Of a stretch of DNA of 64,000 nt, positions 6,236-43,973 are shown in pieces. The position numbers and the translations under genes were made by a program. The notes under the pieces were generated by a model. The model searched no databases. It was not told the origin of the DNA and saw only the letters and a list, made by a program, of their open reading frames with translations. Numbering within the stretch: position 1 is the stretch's first letter; each line of letters starts with the position of its first letter. Origin of the DNA: Pyrobaculum sp. WP30 (GTDB taxonomy: Archaea > Thermoproteota > Thermoprotei > Thermoproteales > Thermoproteaceae); the NCBI GenBank assembly GCA_001189275.1, contig CP012158.1, forward strand, positions 124,001 to 188,000, written 5' to 3'.

Positions 6236-7435
6236 TTAGTCGTGTTGAGCCGTCTCTACTTTCCCGCCCTTTACGAGAGTCTCTATGTGTTTCCGCCTCT
6301 CTTTTTCGTATTGGTCGGCTGGGAAGGACTTTACCTTTGCCAAGATCTTCGGCAAGGCCGTGTATTCCATCTCCTCAGGCGGCAGTCTGTGCGGCTGGAA
6401 CGGGCCCATGCGGCGTATGTAATCAGCTATCTGTGCCGCCGTCTGCCTCACGTAGTCGAAGGCCGGGTCGTCAAAGAGGTCGACGCCGCCCTCGAGGTAG
6501 CCGTCGTGTAGCTGGAAGCCCAAGGCGCCCACTTTAGGCGGGCCGTCGAAGCGGGTCATCTTGGCGCCCACCGCGATCCTCCTCTCTGGGTCCACCGAGA
6601 TAAAGCGCGCGGGCATGAGAGGCCCGGCGTGGCTGCCGCGCATCCAGCCGTGTACGAGGTGCGGGTGGGCGAAAGCCTCTAGTATCTCGCCGACCGCTGG
6701 AAGGCCGGACTGCGCCCTCACCATCATGACTGGGTCGTCTTTGCCCACGTAGCGACCTGCGATTAGGGATAGCCTCTCTACGCTGTTTGCGGCGGCTGGG
6801 GCGCCGTCTGCCCTGCGGAAAACCTTCCTGATTATGTACCTGCCGGTGGTGCCTATAAGGCCGAGGAGGGAGTAAGACTCCTCGGGCGTCTTCAGGAGGT
6901 ATACCTTGTGCTCGATGACGTCTAGGACCTCAAAGATGAAGCCTTCGTGCATCGAGGGGTCTATGACGAGGCCCGCTGTTGTGAAGGGGTCGGCGAACAT
7001 CTTGTAGATCGGGAGGTTGAAGGCGCCGGGCTCCGTCTTATCAGCAGCGAAGACAATCAGCGGCTCGCTGGGGCGCTCCTCGAACTCCATTTCGGCCACC
7101 TGGGGCCCCATGCCTCTGACGTTGCCCGAGAAGGCGTCTTTCAGCAAGTCCTGCCCGGCGCCGTATAGCTTAAACCTCTTGGCCACCTGCTCGGTCACCT
7201 CCTTGAAGGTCTCCCAGGCTAGGCCGTGGATGTCGGGGTTGTCCTCGCCCTTTGTGTGAGTCATCAGGAGGGAGATGTCATCGCCGACGTTGTAGACGAA
7301 GTAGTCTATTATGAGGCCCCTCTTCTGCGCCTCTTTCATCTTAGCCGCGGCGTATTCAAGCATCTTGGGGTGGACATGGGCGTGGCCCGGGAAGCCGCCT
7401 ACATCGGCTTTTATTATTGAGACCGTAACTTTCAT
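6236..7435 (-). CDS. fbp: fructose-1,6-bisphosphate aldolase/phosphatase (bifunctional)
   Basis: 399 residues, the usual length for this archaeal gluconeogenic enzyme, which condenses triose phosphates to FBP and then dephosphorylates it to fructose 6-phosphate. The active-site residues described for the family are present: Asp11, His18, Asp52 and Asp53 for metal binding, Lys232 (Schiff base) and Tyr229 in RYVGKDDP. The anabolic one-way enzyme fits autotrophic or amino-acid growth. The ATG at 7435 is 24-25 bp from a TTTAAA element (7457-7462) shared with the divergent GNAT gene. Confidence 0.96.
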   Translation of the reverse strand: MKVTVSIIKADVGGFPGHAHVHPKMLEYAAAKMKEAQKRGLIIDYFVYNVGDDISLLMTHTKGEDNPDIHGLAWETFKEVTEQVAKRFKLYGAGQDLLKDAFSGNVRGMGPQVAEMEFEERPSEPLIVFAADKTEPGAFNLPIYKMFADPFTTAGLVIDPSMHEGFIFEVLDVIEHKVYLLKTPEESYSLLGLIGTTGRYIIRKVFRRADGAPAAANSVERLSLIAGRYVGKDDPVMMVRAQSGLPAVGEILEAFAHPHLVHGWMRGSHAGPLMPARFISVDPERRIAVGAKMTRFDGPPKVGALGFQLHDGYLEGGVDLFDDPAFDYVRQTAAQIADYIRRMGPFQPHRLPPEEMEYTALPKILAKVKSFPADQYEKERRKHIETLVKGGKVETAQHD

Positions 7436-7456: not shown

Positions 7457-7462
7457 TTTAAA
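7457..7462. promoter_or_regulatory. shared palindromic TATA box of fbp and GNAT gene
   Basis: TTTAAA is its own reverse complement and is the only AT-rich element between the two genes. It is centred about 24.5 bp from the fbp ATG (7435, minus strand) and about 22.5 bp from the GTG at 7482 (plus strand). Both genes would be leaderless from one TBP site used in either direction. Confidence 0.6.
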
Positions 7463-7481: not shown

Positions 7482-7943
7482 GTGAGCATCGACTATGTCG
7501 AGATGACAGGAGTATACTCAAAAATTCAGGAGTTATACAAGAAGACAACTCAGGACAGCATAATTCACAGGTTTCTTCATCCCGTCGCGGACCCCACCTA
7601 CGTTTATCGATACCTCTGGGGCAGGGGTTGCCGCTCGTTATTCATATATTACGACAACAAGCCAGTGGGGGTTGTCGACGTAACCCCATGTGGAGACGGT
7701 GCCGAGGTGGCCATCTTGATTATTGACGCGTACCAGGGCAGAGGGCTTGGGAAGGCCGTCGCCTACGACTTCGCCGGGAGGCTGAAAAAGATGGGCTTTA
7801 GATACGTGCTTGCGTACGTCTCGCCGGAGAACTACAAGGCTTTGGCCATAGCGAGGAGGATAGGCGCCGAGATAAAATGCAGAGACGTCTGCGTCGTCAA
7901 ATACGTGCTGGCCGAGGGCGGCGAGGAGATGTGCAGAAGATAA
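7482..7943 (+). CDS. GNAT-family N-acetyltransferase
   Basis: About 153 residues. The acetyl-CoA-binding motif A is visible as IIDAYQGRGLGKAVAYDFA (Q-x-x-G-x-G), preceded by the beta strands VGVVDVTP and AEVAILI and followed by YVSPENYKALAIARRIGAE, typical of GNAT motif B. The substrate is unknown. In-frame ATGs at 7434 and 7440 lie upstream of the TATA box and so cannot be in the transcript; GTG 7482 or ATG 7503 is the likely start. Divergent from fbp and sharing its TATA box. The carA promoter begins at its stop codon. Confidence 0.75.
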   Translation: MSIDYVEMTGVYSKIQELYKKTTQDSIIHRFLHPVADPTYVYRYLWGRGCRSLFIYYDNKPVGVVDVTPCGDGAEVAILIIDAYQGRGLGKAVAYDFAGRLKKMGFRYVLAYVSPENYKALAIARRIGAEIKCRDVCVVKYVLAEGGEEMCRR

Positions 7944-15389: not shown

Positions 15390-16518
15390 AAGAAAACTAC
15401 TGGTCGCAATCGGTGCCGCGGCGGTGCTGGCGGCAGTAGGCGGGGGATTCATGCTCTTCAGGAGGGGGGGAGGCGCCGCGGCGCCGACGCAGACAACGGC
15501 GCGGGGCGGGGAGCTGGCCGTATACAACTACAGCTACTACATAGACAAGGAGCTTCTCCCTGAGTTTGAGAAGGAGCACGGCATAAAGGTGATCTACCAG
15601 GAGTTCGAGAGCGGCGAGGAGGCATACGCGGCGTTGCTGAGAGGAGGCGGTGGCTACGACCTCGTCGTGGTGCCCGACACCTACATCAGAGACGTGATAA
15701 AGAGGGGGCTTGTCAAGAGGATAGACCACAACAAGCTCTCCAACATAGGCAACGTGGACCCGGCGTTTTTCGATAACCCCAACGACCCGGGGCTCCAGTA
15801 CTCCGTCCCCTATGCCTTCGGCACTACGGGCTTCGCCGTCAACTACTACGCCATGAAGGCCGACCTCGGCAGAAGGCTGGACGGCTGGATCGACCTATTC
15901 GACTTAGGCATATTGGAGAAGATAAGGGGCGAGGTGGCGATGCTTGAGGAATTTACAGAGCCAATCATGGCCGCCAAATACGCCCTGGACATAGACTCAG
16001 ACGACTGGAGCGAGACCGCGGTTAATAGAGTTATTGAATTGCTCAAGAGGCAGAAGGACTACATAAGGGGCTACCTGGGCATCAGCCAGATCGTGCCCGC
16101 CATAGCCGCCGGCGAGCTTTGGGTGTCGCAGATATGGTCCGGCGACGCCGCCACGGCCCGGGACGAGTTCGTCAAAAACGCTGGCGAGCAACACGCCGAC
16201 AAGTTCGAATACGTGCTCCCAAAGCCCATGACCCACCGCTGGGTGGACCTTATGGTTATTCCGCGCGACGCGAAAAACGTGGAGGCGGCGTACCTGTTCG
16301 TAGACTTCTTGTTGCGGCCGGAGAACTCTGCCAGGGTAGTGAAGGCTTCCAACTACCCAACGCCTCTGAAGAGACAGCTCCTGGAGAGGTACCTAGACCC
16401 AGGCATCCTGCAGGACCCCACCGTGTTTCCGCCCCCCGAGGCGAAGCTGATACACCTCAACTACACCGACGAGATGCTCAAGGCCGTTGAGAGGATCAGC
16501 TACGCCGTGAAGGGCTGA
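15379..16518 (+). CDS. PotD-like ABC transporter substrate-binding protein (polyamine type)
   Basis: 379 residues. An N-terminal signal ([26 protein letters not shown]) contains twin arginines and is followed by a low-complexity linker, so it is exported and membrane-anchored. The mature part has the PotD pattern: [61 protein letters not shown] and a C-terminal [12 protein letters not shown]. Polyamines matter in hyperthermophiles, and spermidine/putrescine is the likely ligand. No permease or ATPase genes adjoin, so the transporter partner must be elsewhere. Convergent with the phosphatase gene, 23 bp overlap. Confidence 0.85.
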
Positions 16519-16990
16519 GGGCCTCCACCAGCTCCGTAAAGCACTTCACGTCTTTTCCAAACTGGATGAAGCGGACTGGGCCTATGTTCTCCCAGATCTC
16601 CCTTATGTGTATGTCTCGGTCGTCCACGTATACGATGTCGCTGGGCTGGATCTCCACGCCTCTTTCCTCTCTTATCTGCCTAAGCACCCGATGTAGCATC
16701 TTGTCTTTACGGGGATGCGGCTCGATGGCCAGGTAGTGGAAGTAGCCGTCTAGCTCAAAAGCTCTGAGCGCCTGGTAAGCCACGTCGAAGTCGTTCCAAG
16801 ACAGTGTGGCGAGGATGTGGCCGGCCCCCCTGGCCCACTGCAGAAAGTACCTGAGGTGGGGGCGCAGGTTGACGACCACGCCGCGGTTGTCCGCGATCGC
16901 GAGGGGGCCCACCCGCTTGAAGGGCGGGTACAGAGAGGAGATGTCTGGGTGATCCCACGCGGTGCCGTCGAGATCCAGGGCGATGAGCAT
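16496..16990 (-). CDS. HAD-superfamily phosphatase, MDP-1-like
   Basis: 164 residues. MLIALDLDGTAWDHPDIS carries HAD motif I (DxDGT). LATLSWND is motif II, as in magnesium-dependent phosphatase 1, HPRKDKM motif III and IVYVDDRDIH motif IV. Reported MDP-1 substrates include phosphotyrosine and sugar phosphates; the in vivo substrate here is unknown. An in-frame ATG at 17020 lies upstream of the TATA box, so the ATG at 16990 (23.5 bp from the TATA centre) is the start. It is divergent from the SCP2-like gene and shares its palindromic TATA element. Confidence 0.82.
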   Translation of the reverse strand: MLIALDLDGTAWDHPDISSLYPPFKRVGPLAIADNRGVVVNLRPHLRYFLQWARGAGHILATLSWNDFDVAYQALRAFELDGYFHYLAIEPHPRKDKMLHRVLRQIREERGVEIQPSDIVYVDDRDIHIREIWENIGPVRFIQFGKDVKCFTELVEALSPSRRS

Positions 16991-17006
16991 GGCGTGTCCC
17001 TCCTGT

Positions 17007-17020
17007 ATGTTTATAAACAT
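17007..17020. promoter_or_regulatory. perfect 14-bp palindromic TATA element, bidirectional promoter
   Basis: ATGTTTATAAACAT is a perfect inverted repeat centred at 17013.5. The start codons on the two strands (ATG at 16990 minus, GTG at 17037 plus) are each exactly 23.5 bp from this centre. It is the clearest example of the shared divergent promoter seen several times in the window. Confidence 0.7.
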
Positions 17021-17036
17021 GTGGGCTGGACTTCAC

Positions 17037-17417
17037 GTGTTTAAACCAACGCAGGAATGGGCCTTGGAGCTGTGCAGGAGGTTGCGTCACGAAGGCGCTG
17101 AGGGCGCCTTGGTCATATCCGCCGTGGAGGCACCTCCCGACGTCTCGCCTACTGGGCGCGTGGCGCTTCTGCTAGAGTTCAGCGGGGGGAGGTGCGTAAG
17201 GGCGGTGCTCTCGCCGGGGTCCCAGGGAGGTGACTTCGTGCTGGAGGGCACCTATCAGGACTACCTAAGGATTTTCGAAGGGAAGCTTCCGCCGTTTGCC
17301 GCCTTTGCCTTGGGCAAGATACGCCTAATAAAGGGGTCTCTCTCTAAGCTCGCAGACTACATGCCCCTAGCGCTGGAGATAGTGAGAAAGGCGAGGAAAG
17401 CGGCGGGATACGCGTGA
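17037..17417 (+). CDS. SCP2 (sterol carrier-like) domain protein
   Basis: About 126 residues. The C-terminal half, GGDFVLEGTYQDYLRIFEGKLPPFAAFALGKIRLIKGSLSKLADYMPLA, follows the SCP2 pattern (a tetrad of strands, then W/Y-x-x-hydrophobic, a GKI-x-I-KG-x-L hairpin and a closing helix). SCP2 domains bind hydrophobic ligands such as lipids and acyl chains; the archaeal ligand is unknown. Start GTG 17037 is chosen because the ATG at 17022 is too close to the TATA box. Followed by moaB with its own TTAATTAA promoter. Confidence 0.65.
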   Translation: MFKPTQEWALELCRRLRHEGAEGALVISAVEAPPDVSPTGRVALLLEFSGGRCVRAVLSPGSQGGDFVLEGTYQDYLRIFEGKLPPFAAFALGKIRLIKGSLSKLADYMPLALEIVRKARKAAGYA

Positions 17418-18497: not shown

Positions 18498-19084
18498 AGG
18501 TTGATGTAGAGCGCCGCCGCGTTTTGCAGGAAGTGGAGCATTATAGACGCCGGCAGGCCGTATCTATGGTAGGCGTACGCCAAACTCAAGGCGATGATAA
18601 ATATGGGCACGGCGCCGAGGCCGGGCCTGTGTAGCAACGCAAACACAAGCGACGACAGCACGTAGGCCGCCGCCACGCCCCACCGGCGTCTCGCCTCCTC
18701 AAACAGTATCCCCCTAAACATCACCTCCTCCACCAGCGGCGCCAGCGCCAATGCTTGAATAACCACGAGGGGGGCACCCAGGGGGCACCCGGCCGCTTCC
18801 TGGAAGAACGTGCGCTGTGCCTCGCTCAGTTCCTTGTACTCCTGCCTGATGGGGGGCACCGCGAGGATCACGGCAGTTGCGGTCAGGAGGGTGAGGAAAT
18901 ACGCGAGAAAAGCCAGGGGGAACCGCCTGTCCAGCCGCCAATCTGCCAGCAGACCCGCGGGGACGAAGGCCAGGTAGAGGGCCGTGCCTAGGTAGAGCGC
19001 CGCGCATGCGGCGGGTTTATACAGGTCAAACGCTGCTACGGCCGCTACGAAGATCAGCGGTACCGCCGCCCTCTTGCGTATCAC
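18494..19084 (-). CDS. CPBP-family intramembrane metalloprotease
   Basis: 196 residues, strongly hydrophobic with about six membrane segments. The Abi/CAAX-protease motifs are PLVEEVMFRGILFEEARRRWG (EE..xR) and SLVFALLHRPG (FxxxH). These glutamates and histidines form the catalytic site in the inner membrane. The substrate is unknown; bacterial relatives act in prenyl-protein processing or bacteriocin immunity. The gene is oriented away from gins23. Confidence 0.85.
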   Translation of the reverse strand: MIRKRAAVPLIFVAAVAAFDLYKPAACAALYLGTALYLAFVPAGLLADWRLDRRFPLAFLAYFLTLLTATAVILAVPPIRQEYKELSEAQRTFFQEAAGCPLGAPLVVIQALALAPLVEEVMFRGILFEEARRRWGVAAAYVLSSLVFALLHRPGLGAVPIFIIALSLAYAYHRYGLPASIMLHFLQNAAALYINL

Positions 19085-19131
19085 TGCCGTGATGAATCAC
19101 AACCTTTTTAACCTCTGTGGAAGGATTGTCC

Positions 19132-39450: not shown

Positions 39451-39977
39451 CGGATCTGCTGGCTGTGGCAGATACGCTCTGTAAGACGCCTAGGGTGGGC
39501 TGGCTCCAGCGAGGCGTGGGAGATGCCGAGACCGTCTGCGCACACTCCCTCCTCGTCATTTTGCTGGCGGGGGAGATCGCGGCGAGGCTAAATGCGGAGG
39601 GGGCGGACGTGGACTTGGCCGAGGTGCTTGCAGTGGCCGCCGTCCACGACCTGGCTGAGGCGGTTCTGGGGCATCCGGGCAGGGAGGTGCGGGATAGGCT
39701 ACGGTGGGAGGAGGTGGAGGAGGATGTGTTTAGAAGGGAGTTCCCGCATCTCGCGGAGCTGTTTCGGTGGTACCGCTACGAGACAAACACGGTGGGGCGA
39801 ATCGTGGCCTTCGCCGACAAGCTCGCCACATTAATAAGGGCGTGCCGCTACAGGCAACTGGGGCATCACACAGACGACTTAATAAGAGGCCTCCACAAGA
39901 AGCTCCTGGCATACGACGACCTCGCGCATCTGCTCGATTACTACGTGACGCAGTACTGCCCAGGTCTCACCCCCTAG
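39447..39977 (+). CDS. HD-domain phosphohydrolase (YfbR/HDDC2-like)
   Basis: 176 residues. ETVCAHSLLVILLAGEIAARL gives the first His, AVHDLAEAVLGHPGREV the HD pair, and VGRIVAFADKLATLIRA the last Asp of the HD superfamily. HDDC2/YfbR members are 5'-deoxynucleotidases, the likely activity here, though the substrate is not proven. ATGA overlap with gatD; convergent with the ZPR1-like gene. Confidence 0.8.
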   Translation: MTDLLAVADTLCKTPRVGWLQRGVGDAETVCAHSLLVILLAGEIAARLNAEGADVDLAEVLAVAAVHDLAEAVLGHPGREVRDRLRWEEVEEDVFRREFPHLAELFRWYRYETNTVGRIVAFADKLATLIRACRYRQLGHHTDDLIRGLHKKLLAYDDLAHLLDYYVTQYCPGLTP

Positions 39978-40506
39978 CCTCGTCAAGGTGCTCGACCCTG
40001 ACGGTTTCTTGACGGTACGGCATTATGAAGGATTTGCCGAGGGGATCCTCCACTACTAGGGTGAAGCCGCCTTCCTCAATTTTCCTGTATATGGTTGAGA
40101 TGAATTTGTCCACCTTCTCGGCGGCTTCTGGTTCGAGGAGTTTGAGCCTCTCGGCGTAGTCAATTACCTTGTACATAAAGCCCTCCACAGTAGAGATGAA
40201 AGTATCGCCGTGAGTTCCCGGCTCTAACGAGAAGCCGAGGTCCGGCGAGTGGATGATGCCTGTTTTGCTTCTAATTAGGAAGGACTTGGCCACGTCTAGG
40301 CCGTCCTTCGCCGTGAATATGACGCGGGTGGGCCGCCCCACCTCTGCGTATTCAACGTCGAAGAGCCTGTAGCCGCAGGTGGAGCAGTACCCGCTCTGTA
40401 TCAGCACGTTGCCGAAGAAGGGGGTTTCGTAGAGAAGCTCCACGTATCTGAAGGTCTTGGAGCCGCAGACCGGACACGTCACCTCTCCGCTGAAGACTAC
40501 GGTCAC
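39967..40506 (-). CDS. ZPR1-type zinc-finger protein
   Basis: About 179 residues. EVTCPVCGSKTFRYVELLYETPFFGNVLIQSGYCSTCGYRLFDVEY is a C-x2-C...C-x2-C ZPR1 zinc finger, and the following beta-rich domain (RVIFTAKDGLDVAKSFLIRSKTGIIHSPDLGFSLEPG) is the ZPR1 partner domain. Eukaryotic ZPR1 has two such modules and binds eEF1A as a folding chaperone; archaeal versions have one and may serve aEF1A (inference). GTG 40506 is chosen: the frame is open to 40725, but the TATA box TTTTTAAATTATT lies between. Confidence 0.8.
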   Translation of the reverse strand: MTVVFSGEVTCPVCGSKTFRYVELLYETPFFGNVLIQSGYCSTCGYRLFDVEYAEVGRPTRVIFTAKDGLDVAKSFLIRSKTGIIHSPDLGFSLEPGTHGDTFISTVEGFMYKVIDYAERLKLLEPEAAEKVDKFISTIYRKIEEGGFTLVVEDPLGKSFIMPYRQETVRVEHLDEARG

Positions 40507-40525: not shown

Positions 40526-40531
40526 TTTAAA
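40526..40531. promoter_or_regulatory. shared palindromic TATA box of ZPR1-like and small membrane protein genes
   Basis: TTTAAA within AATAATTTAAAAAC is centred about 22.5 bp from the minus-strand GTG (40506) and 24.5 bp from the plus-strand ATG (40553). The start-to-start distance is 47 bp, the same as at 7435/7482 and 16990/17037. Confidence 0.55.
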
Positions 40532-40552: not shown

Positions 40553-40819
40553 ATGGACAAGTTCGACGTTGCCGTCGGCTTCGCCGTGCTTATCTTCATA
40601 TCGCTGGTATTCAGCGGACTCTGGTCCATCTTCGACCCAGCTAGGCCCTTCTGCAACACGCTTCTGGGCTTCGTCATCCTGGGCGTCCTCGCGGGGGGCT
40701 CCCTCCTGCTCGCCAGGTGGTACAAGTCCCTTGAGACAATAGGCGCCGCGTTGACGGTGTTCTATCTCATAGTCATGTGGATAGTCTTCGCCAGCCCAGG
40801 CGTGTTGCAGTACTGCTAG
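40553..40819 (+). CDS. small membrane protein, three predicted helices
   Basis: 88 residues: VAVGFAVLIFISLVFSGLWSIF, LLGFVILGVLAGGSLLLARW and IGAALTVFYLIVMWIVFA are membrane segments. Not recognised as a named family. The ATG at 40535 is next to the TATA box, so ATG 40553 is the probable leaderless start. Divergent from the ZPR1-like gene and sharing its promoter. Confidence 0.65.
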   Translation: MDKFDVAVGFAVLIFISLVFSGLWSIFDPARPFCNTLLGFVILGVLAGGSLLLARWYKSLETIGAALTVFYLIVMWIVFASPGVLQYC

Positions 40820-41474: not shown

Positions 41475-42187
41475 GGCTCCACAGAGGTGCAGTTCTCTGG
41501 GGCTCCGCCTCTTGCGATTATCTCGAGGGATTCTCTGTCAGATATTGAACAGTAGAACACGGGGGTTCCCAGAGCCGCTATGGCCAATCCAGCCTCCACC
41601 TTCTTCCTTATACCCCCCGTGACGTCTACACCGGCGGTCCCCTCTAAATATACGTTACTTTTTAGCCTTCTTATTTTTTCGGCGTTGGGGCTTCCGGGAG
41701 ACGCCGTGTAGATGCCGTCTACGTTCATGAGGAAGATCACGGCGCTGGGCTTGTAGAGCCTGGCGAGCTCAACCGCGATGTCGTCGCCGCTGACCACCAC
41801 GTAGCCCTCGTCGGAGGGGACTATGTCGCCGTGGAGGAGGGGGTACAGCCCCCTCTCCAGCGCATGTGTGATGACCTCACGCCGGACCAGCGATCTGCCC
41901 CAGAACACGTCGCTGGGTTCCACCGGCATGGCCGGCAGGCCAGCCTCTAGTAGCTCCTCGGCCACTAGGGCTGTGAGGCGCCTCAACGTGGCCTTGGTCA
42001 GGGCTATGCCGGTTGGCGTCAGTCCGAAGGCCTTGACGTGGGGGTGTGCGAAGGAGCCCGCGCCGTGGATTAAGACGGCCCTCCTCCCGCGGAGCGCCGG
42101 CGCGGCTTGCGCGATCCGCCCCCGGAGGAAGGTGTAGGGCTTCGTCTTGTCGGTGATGGCGGAGCCGCCGAATTTCACGATAAACAT
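41471..42187 (-). CDS. ipk: isopentenyl phosphate kinase
   Basis: 238 residues of the amino-acid kinase fold: VKFGGSAITDK (ATP lysine), HGAGSFAHPHVKAFGL with the catalytic His50 that separates IPK from other kinases, and VVSGDDIAVELARLYKPSAVIFLMNVDGIY. It phosphorylates isopentenyl phosphate to IPP in the archaeal mevalonate pathway. Its ATG abuts the stop of the prenyl diphosphate synthase, so product and consumer of IPP are co-transcribed. Confidence 0.93.
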   Translation of the reverse strand: MFIVKFGGSAITDKTKPYTFLRGRIAQAAPALRGRRAVLIHGAGSFAHPHVKAFGLTPTGIALTKATLRRLTALVAEELLEAGLPAMPVEPSDVFWGRSLVRREVITHALERGLYPLLHGDIVPSDEGYVVVSGDDIAVELARLYKPSAVIFLMNVDGIYTASPGSPNAEKIRRLKSNVYLEGTAGVDVTGGIRKKVEAGLAIAALGTPVFYCSISDRESLEIIARGGAPENCTSVEP

Positions 42188-43191
42188 CAGTACTGCCTCT
42201 CCAATATGAAGTCCAGTAGCTCCTTCAGCGTCTCGTTGTTAGGTATTTTTGCCAGCTGGCGCTCCGCCTCGCGGCGGTAACTGTCGGCGAGCTTCACAGC
42301 CTCGTCTCTGGCCCCCACCGAGTCCAGAAGCGCCACGGCCCTCTTCACCTCTTCCTCGCCGACATTTTCCCTGGCCAGTATGGCCAGTAGCTCCTCCCTG
42401 TCCCGGGGCGGGAGTCTTGACAGGGCTATGGCGACCACTGCGTTGCCCCTCTTATGTTCCTTTATGTCCTTGCCTATCTCCTTGCCGAACTTCTTGGGGT
42501 CTCCATATATGTCCAACACGTCGTCGATTATCTGGAAGGCGACGCCGGCGTTTAGGCCGAAGCTCCAGGCGGCCTCGGAGAGACCCGCATCGTCGCTTAC
42601 AGAGAGGGCGCCCCACTTGGTTGCGGCGGCTATCAACACACCCGTCTTGAGCGAGACCATGTGTACGTAGTCCTCCGGCGTTACGTCTCTCCGCCTGGCC
42701 TTCACGAAGTAGGGGTCGACCCGGCCTGCGTACTCGAATAATATATCCAGCCGCTCCCCCTCGTCTATCGCCTTGATGACCTTGGCCACCTCCTTGGCGA
42801 AGGTAAGGGGCTTGGGGGTGTCCAAGACGGCCTCCTCTATGGCTTCTCTGTACCATATGCCTATCAAGATGGCTGCGTTGTCGCCAAAAGCCTTCCTAAC
42901 GGTGGGGAGCCCCCTCCGGACGTCTCCCCTGTCTATCATGTCGTCGTATATGAGGGAGTAGTTGTGGATAAGCTCTACGATGGTTGCGGCGGGGAGGGCC
43001 GGCCTCCACTGGCCAGCCACAGCCTCGGCCGTCGCCAGCGTGAGGAGGGGCCTCAGCCTCTTGCCGCCTGTCTTGACTTGGTAGAGGACCTCCTCGCGGA
43101 AGTCTGGAGCCGCGTCGATGGTTAGGTAGTGCTCCAAGGCCTTTTCCACAGCCTCGCCGTATTTCCGGTGGAGCCTACTTACAATGTCCAT
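42187..43191 (-). CDS. idsA: short-chain/geranylgeranyl diphosphate synthase
   Basis: 334 residues. GGKRLRPLL, the first aspartate-rich motif DDMID (83-87) followed by RRG, and the second DDVLD (223-227) identify a trans-prenyltransferase. The short spacing of the first motif (DDxxD) is the archaeal type that makes FPP/GGPP for ether lipids. The frame is open to 43227, but ATG 43191 sits about 22 bp from the TATA box at 43205-43217. Upstream member of the operon with ipk. Confidence 0.93.
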
Positions 43192-43204: not shown

Positions 43205-43217
43205 AATAAATATATAA
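43205..43217. promoter_or_regulatory. AT-rich element shared by idsA and DUF92 gene
   Basis: AATAAATATATAA lies midway between the minus-strand ATG of idsA (43191) and the plus-strand ATG at 43233. The start-to-start distance is 42 bp. One or two overlapping TATA boxes could serve both directions. Confidence 0.5.
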
Positions 43218-43232
43218 CTGATGGCATCGGCG

Positions 43233-43973
43233 ATGGAGTTGTATCTAGTCGCGGTGCCTTCCATCGCGGCTTTGGCCCTTTTTGCGCTTAAGAAAGGCTT
43301 CCTCACCGTGAGGGGCACGGTATCCGCCATAGCGGTGGGCTCCGTCGTCGCCGTGGCGCATGTGGGGCTTTTCCTCCTACTTGTTGCTTTTTTTCTCTCC
43401 TCTTCCCTCTTGACCCGGCTGAGGGCTGAGTGGAAGCGGGCGATGGGGCTTAAGGACGTGTCTGGGCGGTCGCTCCGGCAAGTCGCCGGTGTGGGGACGC
43501 CGATAGCGGTCTTCGGCCTGCTCTATGCGGCGGCCGGGGACCCCAGGTTCCTAGGCGCCGCCGCCGTCGCCGTGGCTGCGGCAAATGCAGATACTTGGGC
43601 CAGCGAGGTGGGGGTGGCCTACGGGGGCCGCCCCCGCCACATCTTGGCGCCGTGGAGAACACTGGAGCCCGGGGTCTCCGGCGGCGTCACCCCGGTGGGT
43701 GCCGCGGCGTCTTTCACGGGCGCGCTGTTTATAGCACTCTTCGCCCAGTTACTCGGCGTCGGGGGCCCTCTGTGGAAAGTCGTTGCCCTTGGCTACTTGG
43801 GCGAGGTTCTCGACAGCGTTTTGGGCGCGGCGCTTCAGGTCAAGTACATATGTAACGGCAAGGTGTCTGAGACCCCGGCGGCTGGTTGCAGGAGGCGGGG
43901 CCTCCTCAGCAACGAAGCGGTGAACCTTGTGAGCGGACTGGCCGTGGGCGCGCTCTTCGCCGCAACAGCTTAA
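43233..43973 (+). CDS. DUF92 family membrane protein (VTE6-like prenyl-phosphate kinase candidate)
   Basis: 246 residues with about six membrane helices. [50 protein letters not shown] and [16 protein letters not shown] are the conserved DUF92 blocks. The plant member VTE6 phosphorylates phytyl monophosphate. Location next to ipk and idsA supports a role in isoprenoid-phosphate recycling here (inference). ATG 43221 lies too near the TATA box; ATG 43233 is preferred. The stop at 43971 overlaps the yjbQ TATA box. Confidence 0.8.

Follow-up and report, generated by a model that had tools for sequence, protein, structure and literature searches.

Within the window, that is, the whole stretch of 64,000 nucleotides of Pyrobaculum sp. 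WP30 DNA that was analysed, a phosphatase gene and a gene for an SCP2-like protein diverge from a short segment whose midpoint is occupied by a 14-bp palindrome. The features of this focal pair are the following.

16496..16990, minus strand: MDP-1-type HAD phosphatase gene, start ATG 16990 (TIGR01685, E 1.9e-52), start supported by orthologs
17007..17020, no strand assigned: focal 14-bp palindrome ATGTTTATAAACAT, judged from its sequence to be a putative shared BRE-TATA-BRE element
17007..17017, plus strand: candidate BRE (ATGTT) and TATA (TATAAA) of the plus gene, best PWM match, TATA centre 22.5 bp from GTG 17037
17010..17020, minus strand: candidate BRE (ATGTT) and TATA (TATAAA) of the minus gene, best PWM match, TATA centre 22.5 bp from ATG 16990
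17037..17417, plus strand: SCP2-like protein gene, start GTG 17037 (PF02036, E 2.9e-4, marginally over the cut-off), start supported by orthologs

The palindrome is centred at 17013.5, which is 23.5 bp from ATG 16990 on the minus strand and 23.5 bp from GTG 17037 on the plus strand, and the exact centring asserted in the original prediction is borne out by the coordinates. The start-to-start distance of a divergent gene pair, designated D hereafter, is 47 at this locus. Each strand reads (ATGTT)(TATAAA) and the score of the BRE+TATA PWM is identical in the two directions, at 14.1. A whole-genome search located ATGTTTATAAACAT only once in the single-contig genome of 1,993,257 bp, of which the window covers 124001-188000.

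Both focal reading frames stay open upstream of these start codons (17019-17036 and 16991-17020), and ATGs lie inside the palindrome on both strands. The in-frame upstream ATGs, at 17020 on the minus strand and at 17007 and 17019 on the plus strand, make longer ORFs possible. The true starts might be located there, or the minus gene might be led by an SD, and the shared-TATA leaderless geometry would then be a local artefact: the coding-potential gene finder does select 17020 and 17007, and an SD-like CAGGAGGGA precedes ATG 16990. Such misassignment is highly improbable, as orthologs in three genomes (G008, G007 and G002) begin precisely at the positions of 16990 and 17037 (M/V-LIA... and M/V-F-K/R-P-T-Q, respectively), which supports the focal starts. 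Moreover, no such SD is present in the G008 ortholog, the sole ortholog with the focal architecture. SD-led or upstream starts are thus disfavoured by the orthologs. Automatic annotation may place both focal starts too far upstream, producing overlapping genes.

The layout of promoters across the genome was surveyed with 2286 genes called by coding potential, without promoter information, which include 419 divergent pairs. The centre of an all-A/T hexamer lies 23.5 bp upstream from the start codon in 32% of the first genes of head-to-tail arrangements and in 45% of divergent genes, over a background of ∼4%. First genes genome-wide show no SD peak matching this hexamer peak, which apparently reflects a leaderless layout: the genome-wide signal is a TATA at a fixed distance from the codon without an SD, the focal minus gene having an SD-like run. 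A TATA used both ways at 23.5 bp would set the two start codons 2 x 23.5 = 47 bp apart.

This spacing is over-represented. In the WP30 genome D falls between 45 and 49 in 27 of the 419 pairs, against 11.5 expected from the mean of six flanking bins (p = 7e-5); the neighbouring bins hold 16 pairs at 40–44, 4 at 50–54 and 13 at 55–59. A 400-kb sample of Pyrobaculum oguniense, independent of hypothesis formation, displays the same peak, with 14 of 87 pairs at D = 45–49 against 2.5 expected (p = 4e-7) and only 3 and 2 in the adjoining bins. The excess is weak in a Thermoproteaceae relative (G012), of which 400 kb yielded 4 of 67 pairs against 1.5 expected (p = 0.07). When starts are refined with the TATA, the 45–49 count in WP30 rises to 44. 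Mock offsets also generate a peak, milder and near their own double distance, and for this reason the main statistics rely on promoter-free starts. An exact-47-bp pattern gave 17 matches against 1 for the control in P. oguniense; in ten other genomes, which include Vulcanisaeta, Thermofilaceae, Sulfolobales, Thermococcus and Methanoperedens, this search, probing one spacing only, gave low numbers that were near the control in most. The recurrence of a divergent spacing of ∼47 bp therefore exceeds chance genome-wide in WP30 and in the P. oguniense sample. The geometry had been proposed to be fixed: a preferred spacing is upheld, but it is modal only, refined pairs of 41–51 bp having a median of 46 and an SD (standard deviation) of 2.6.

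Two further features of the distribution are worth recording. A milder second excess is observed in WP30 at D = 25–29 (20 pairs against 9.8 expected, p = 0.003), a spacing at which each TATA would fall on the start of the opposite gene, as exemplified by 13907/13934 (D = 27); it is weaker in P. oguniense, with 2 pairs. In addition, the scarcity of D = 50–54 gives the impression that TATA boxes avoid partial overlap.

A peak in spacing might arise if each gene had its own TATA and ordinary promoters simply overlapped in a compact genome, with nothing shared or maintained. The excess of compact pairs at D = 25–29 is in keeping with this explanation, as is the presence of two TATAs at D = 31–34 in some congeners at the focal locus. 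Furthermore, directional hexamers are near-symmetric, and about half of the head-to-tail promoters also attain good scores when read in reverse. However, smooth compaction would not be expected to yield 27 pairs at 45–49 and 4 at 50–54, nor the same drop, from 14 to 2, in P. oguniense. Separate TATAs are on balance an improbable explanation, and two other lines of evidence discussed below, the two-sided BRE and the spacing retained at the pair containing a ZPR1-like gene, also argue against them. Between WP30 and P. oguniense, D shifts by no more than 5 bp in each of the 10 clean cases with D of 43–51, and among the remaining pairs this holds for 13 of 21 (p = 0.026).

In the promoter model, a purine-rich BRE precedes T[AT]T[AT][AT]A. 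Ordinary directional promoters also have a near-symmetric TATA hexamer, and direction therefore appears to reside in the BRE. This element lies mainly upstream in directional promoters, whereas shared sites have it on both sides: with starts and hexamers picked without the BRE, the reverse-side BRE score is 2.09 at shared sites versus 0.77 at head-to-tail promoters (p = 4e-5). The reverse TATA hexamer, by comparison, does not differ between shared and head-to-tail sites (p = 0.17). What marks the class is a BRE on either side of a TATA that is itself ordinary and near-symmetric; a long palindrome does not. The palindrome, initially viewed as characteristic, is ruled out as the defining feature: a perfect one of at least 14 bp occurs in just 1 of 59 other shared sites, and the genome harbours 235 such palindromes, against ∼147 expected from composition. 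Spacing, unlike the palindrome by itself, surpasses chance in view of the excess at D = 45–49 in two genomes. The focal palindrome, with its equal scores, is the perfectly balanced extreme of the shared BRE-TATA-BRE class.

The perfect 14-bp two-fold symmetry halfway between the genes might instead denote the operator of a dimeric regulator governing both of them, rather than a TATA; in archaea, regulators commonly bind across the TATA or next to it. This interpretation has very little probability. The site sits at the exact TATA position, where it attains its high BRE+TATA score, and the palindrome is absent in two of the three congeners that have the focal pair. A regulon operator would recur, but the site is unique in the genome, and 19 near matches (at most 2 mismatches) are scattered, many of them away from called starts, and form no regulon.

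Candidate shared cores also lie between the starts of four other divergent pairs in the window and are listed here without strand.

7457..7462: TTTAAA core between the FBP aldolase/phosphatase gene (6236-7435, minus strand) and the GNAT gene (7482-7943, plus strand), D = 47
19105..19111: TTTTTAA core between starts 19084 (minus strand) and 19132 (plus strand), D = 48
40526..40531: TTTAAA core between the ZPR1-like gene (39967-40506, minus strand) and a gene for a small hydrophobic protein (40553-40819, plus strand), D = 47
43211..43216: TATATA core between the polyprenyl synthetase gene (42187-43191, minus strand) and the DUF92 membrane protein gene (43233-43973, plus strand), D = 42

The original prediction had cited the FBP and ZPR1 pairs as further 47-bp cases with a central TTTAAA: the spacing holds at both, but the hexamer deviates from the centre by 1 bp (22.5/24.5). 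The 42 bp given for the polyprenyl synthetase pair agree with its coordinates (43191/43233). The pair at 19084/19132, which had been missed, has promoter scores of 10.9 on the plus strand and 7.0 on the minus strand, where the motif is weak and does not reach the 99th percentile of the background.

Conservation varies from locus to locus. At the ZPR1 pair, D across nine genomes of the genus is 47 (WP30), 47, 48, 48, 46, 47, 47, 46 and 42, hence 46–48 in eight of nine, and the core ATTTAAAAAC is retained in most genomes while the flanks have diverged. The small hydrophobic protein has no family match; in the relative G012 a divergent small hydrophobic gene is still found upstream of ZPR1, with two separate TATA-like elements. 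The polyprenyl synthetase/DUF92 pair maintains D = 41–44 in eight genomes. What the eight genomes retain there is a block (43205-43217) with the sequence CCAATAAATATATA or one close to it; this block exceeds what a TATA alone needs and perhaps comprises a BRE and a second site. At the FBP/GNAT pair the spacing is 47 in WP30 and 46 and 41 in two Pyrobaculum orthologs, the FBP protein being 93% identical to its P. oguniense counterpart. The focal pair shows D = 47 and 48 with a common GTTTATAAAC, a core that the G008 ortholog retains; two other congeners have D = 31 and 34 and two separate TATA-like elements each, and TATA sharing is not conserved at this pair. Sharing of a TATA is thus common, but only some loci conserve it; elsewhere it has been lost or is lacking.

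The focal element is probably a bidirectional archaeal core promoter, one TATA being common to two apparently leaderless genes. This assignment draws on sequence-based evidence: the TATA-to-start geometry, the excess in spacing, the two-sided BRE and the fact that some loci conserve both spacing and core. One TATA midway between divergent starts is found both at the focal pair, at 23.5 bp, and across the class, as the peak in D; the claim that one TATA lies at the distance expected of a promoter from both divergent genes, each apparently leaderless, accordingly stands. In the proposed mechanism, a single TBP-binding TATA would be flanked on each side by a BRE, the TFB-recognition element, and the TBP-TFB-RNA polymerase complex would nucleate on it in either orientation. 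The mRNAs would be leaderless, with the start codon at the transcript start or ∼1 base from it, at ∼23.5 bp from the TATA centre; two-way use of the TATA would then leave the start codons ∼47 bp apart. Transcripts are expected to begin at both codons, nucleated by the same TATA, with a single orientation occupied at any one time.

Two complexes on a single TBP site should physically exclude each other, and the consequence of this exclusion would hinge on occupancy; a repressor over the TATA would be predicted to silence both genes. Forced competition or co-regulation, as originally put forward, does not follow: five E. coli bidirectional promoters are too weak for competition at the basal level, and competition appears only under strong activation of one direction (PMC12825309). 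The shared TATA of Pyrobaculum could be a selected coupling device, in which mutually exclusive complexes set the ratio of two proteins or lower their noise, for example for the ZPR1-like protein and the small hydrophobic protein encoded next to it. This suggestion is doubtful, and were it true, selected coupling would account for a spacing held amid diverging surroundings.

The shared layout accounts for about 6–16% of divergent pairs. A property usually viewed as a source of antisense noise thus emerges as a gene-pair architecture that can be counted and is partly conserved within a hyperthermophile genus. As the transcripts are apparently leaderless, both transcript starts should be predictable from sequence alone, and the competition of two polymerases for one TBP site becomes testable at dozens of natural loci. 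The layout also furnishes a rule for correcting gene starts: divergent starts ∼47 bp apart flanking one TATA.

A frequent common promoter for two apparently leaderless protein genes, with a spacing of twice the TATA distance, was not found described in a search of open-licence papers, which is weak evidence of novelty. To our knowledge, the leaderless transcripts of Pyrobaculum aerophilum have not been framed as shared divergent promoters. In that species a small-scale study found all transcripts to be leaderless (Slupska et al. 2001, as cited in PMC4983044); the genus-level layout would be alike, with the codon at the transcript start fixing the distance between TATA and codon.

The originally suggested novelty of the promoter class is not sustained, as a two-way archaeal TATA with a BRE-TATA-BRE arrangement has already been demonstrated. 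In Pyrococcus furiosus, dRNA-seq revealed two-way transcription from one TATA, with BRE-TATA-BRE midway and starts ∼50 bp apart, and both directions were transcribed in vitro from starts 49 bp apart (PMC6640164). The Pyrobaculum sites resemble these promoters in their near-symmetric TATA (TTTAAA core) with a BRE on each side, and the opposite-strand starts of P. furiosus, 49–50 bp apart, are comparably spaced (PMC6640164). According to papers that cite Warman et al. (2021, Nat Microbiol), core-promoter symmetry leads to divergent transcription in bacteria and archaea, and the likeness includes one element firing both ways with two mutually exclusive occupancies (Warman et al. 2021; PMC12825309). 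The comparison extends to the bacterial counterparts, whose elements are -10 hexamers and whose starts usually lie 18 bp from each other (PMC10268837). At the head-to-tail genes of P. furiosus, the reverse product is treated chiefly as antisense RNA without function (PMC6640164). In Pyrobaculum, by contrast, both products are protein-coding and apparently leaderless, and the peak is in the spacing of start codons (∼47 bp), the codons alone having been measured. In all likelihood the element belongs to a kind of bidirectional archaeal promoter that is already known, present here as a compact leaderless gene-pair variant: the two-way TATA is known, and what seems new is its use as a compact, partly conserved gene-pair layout with starts ∼47 bp apart.
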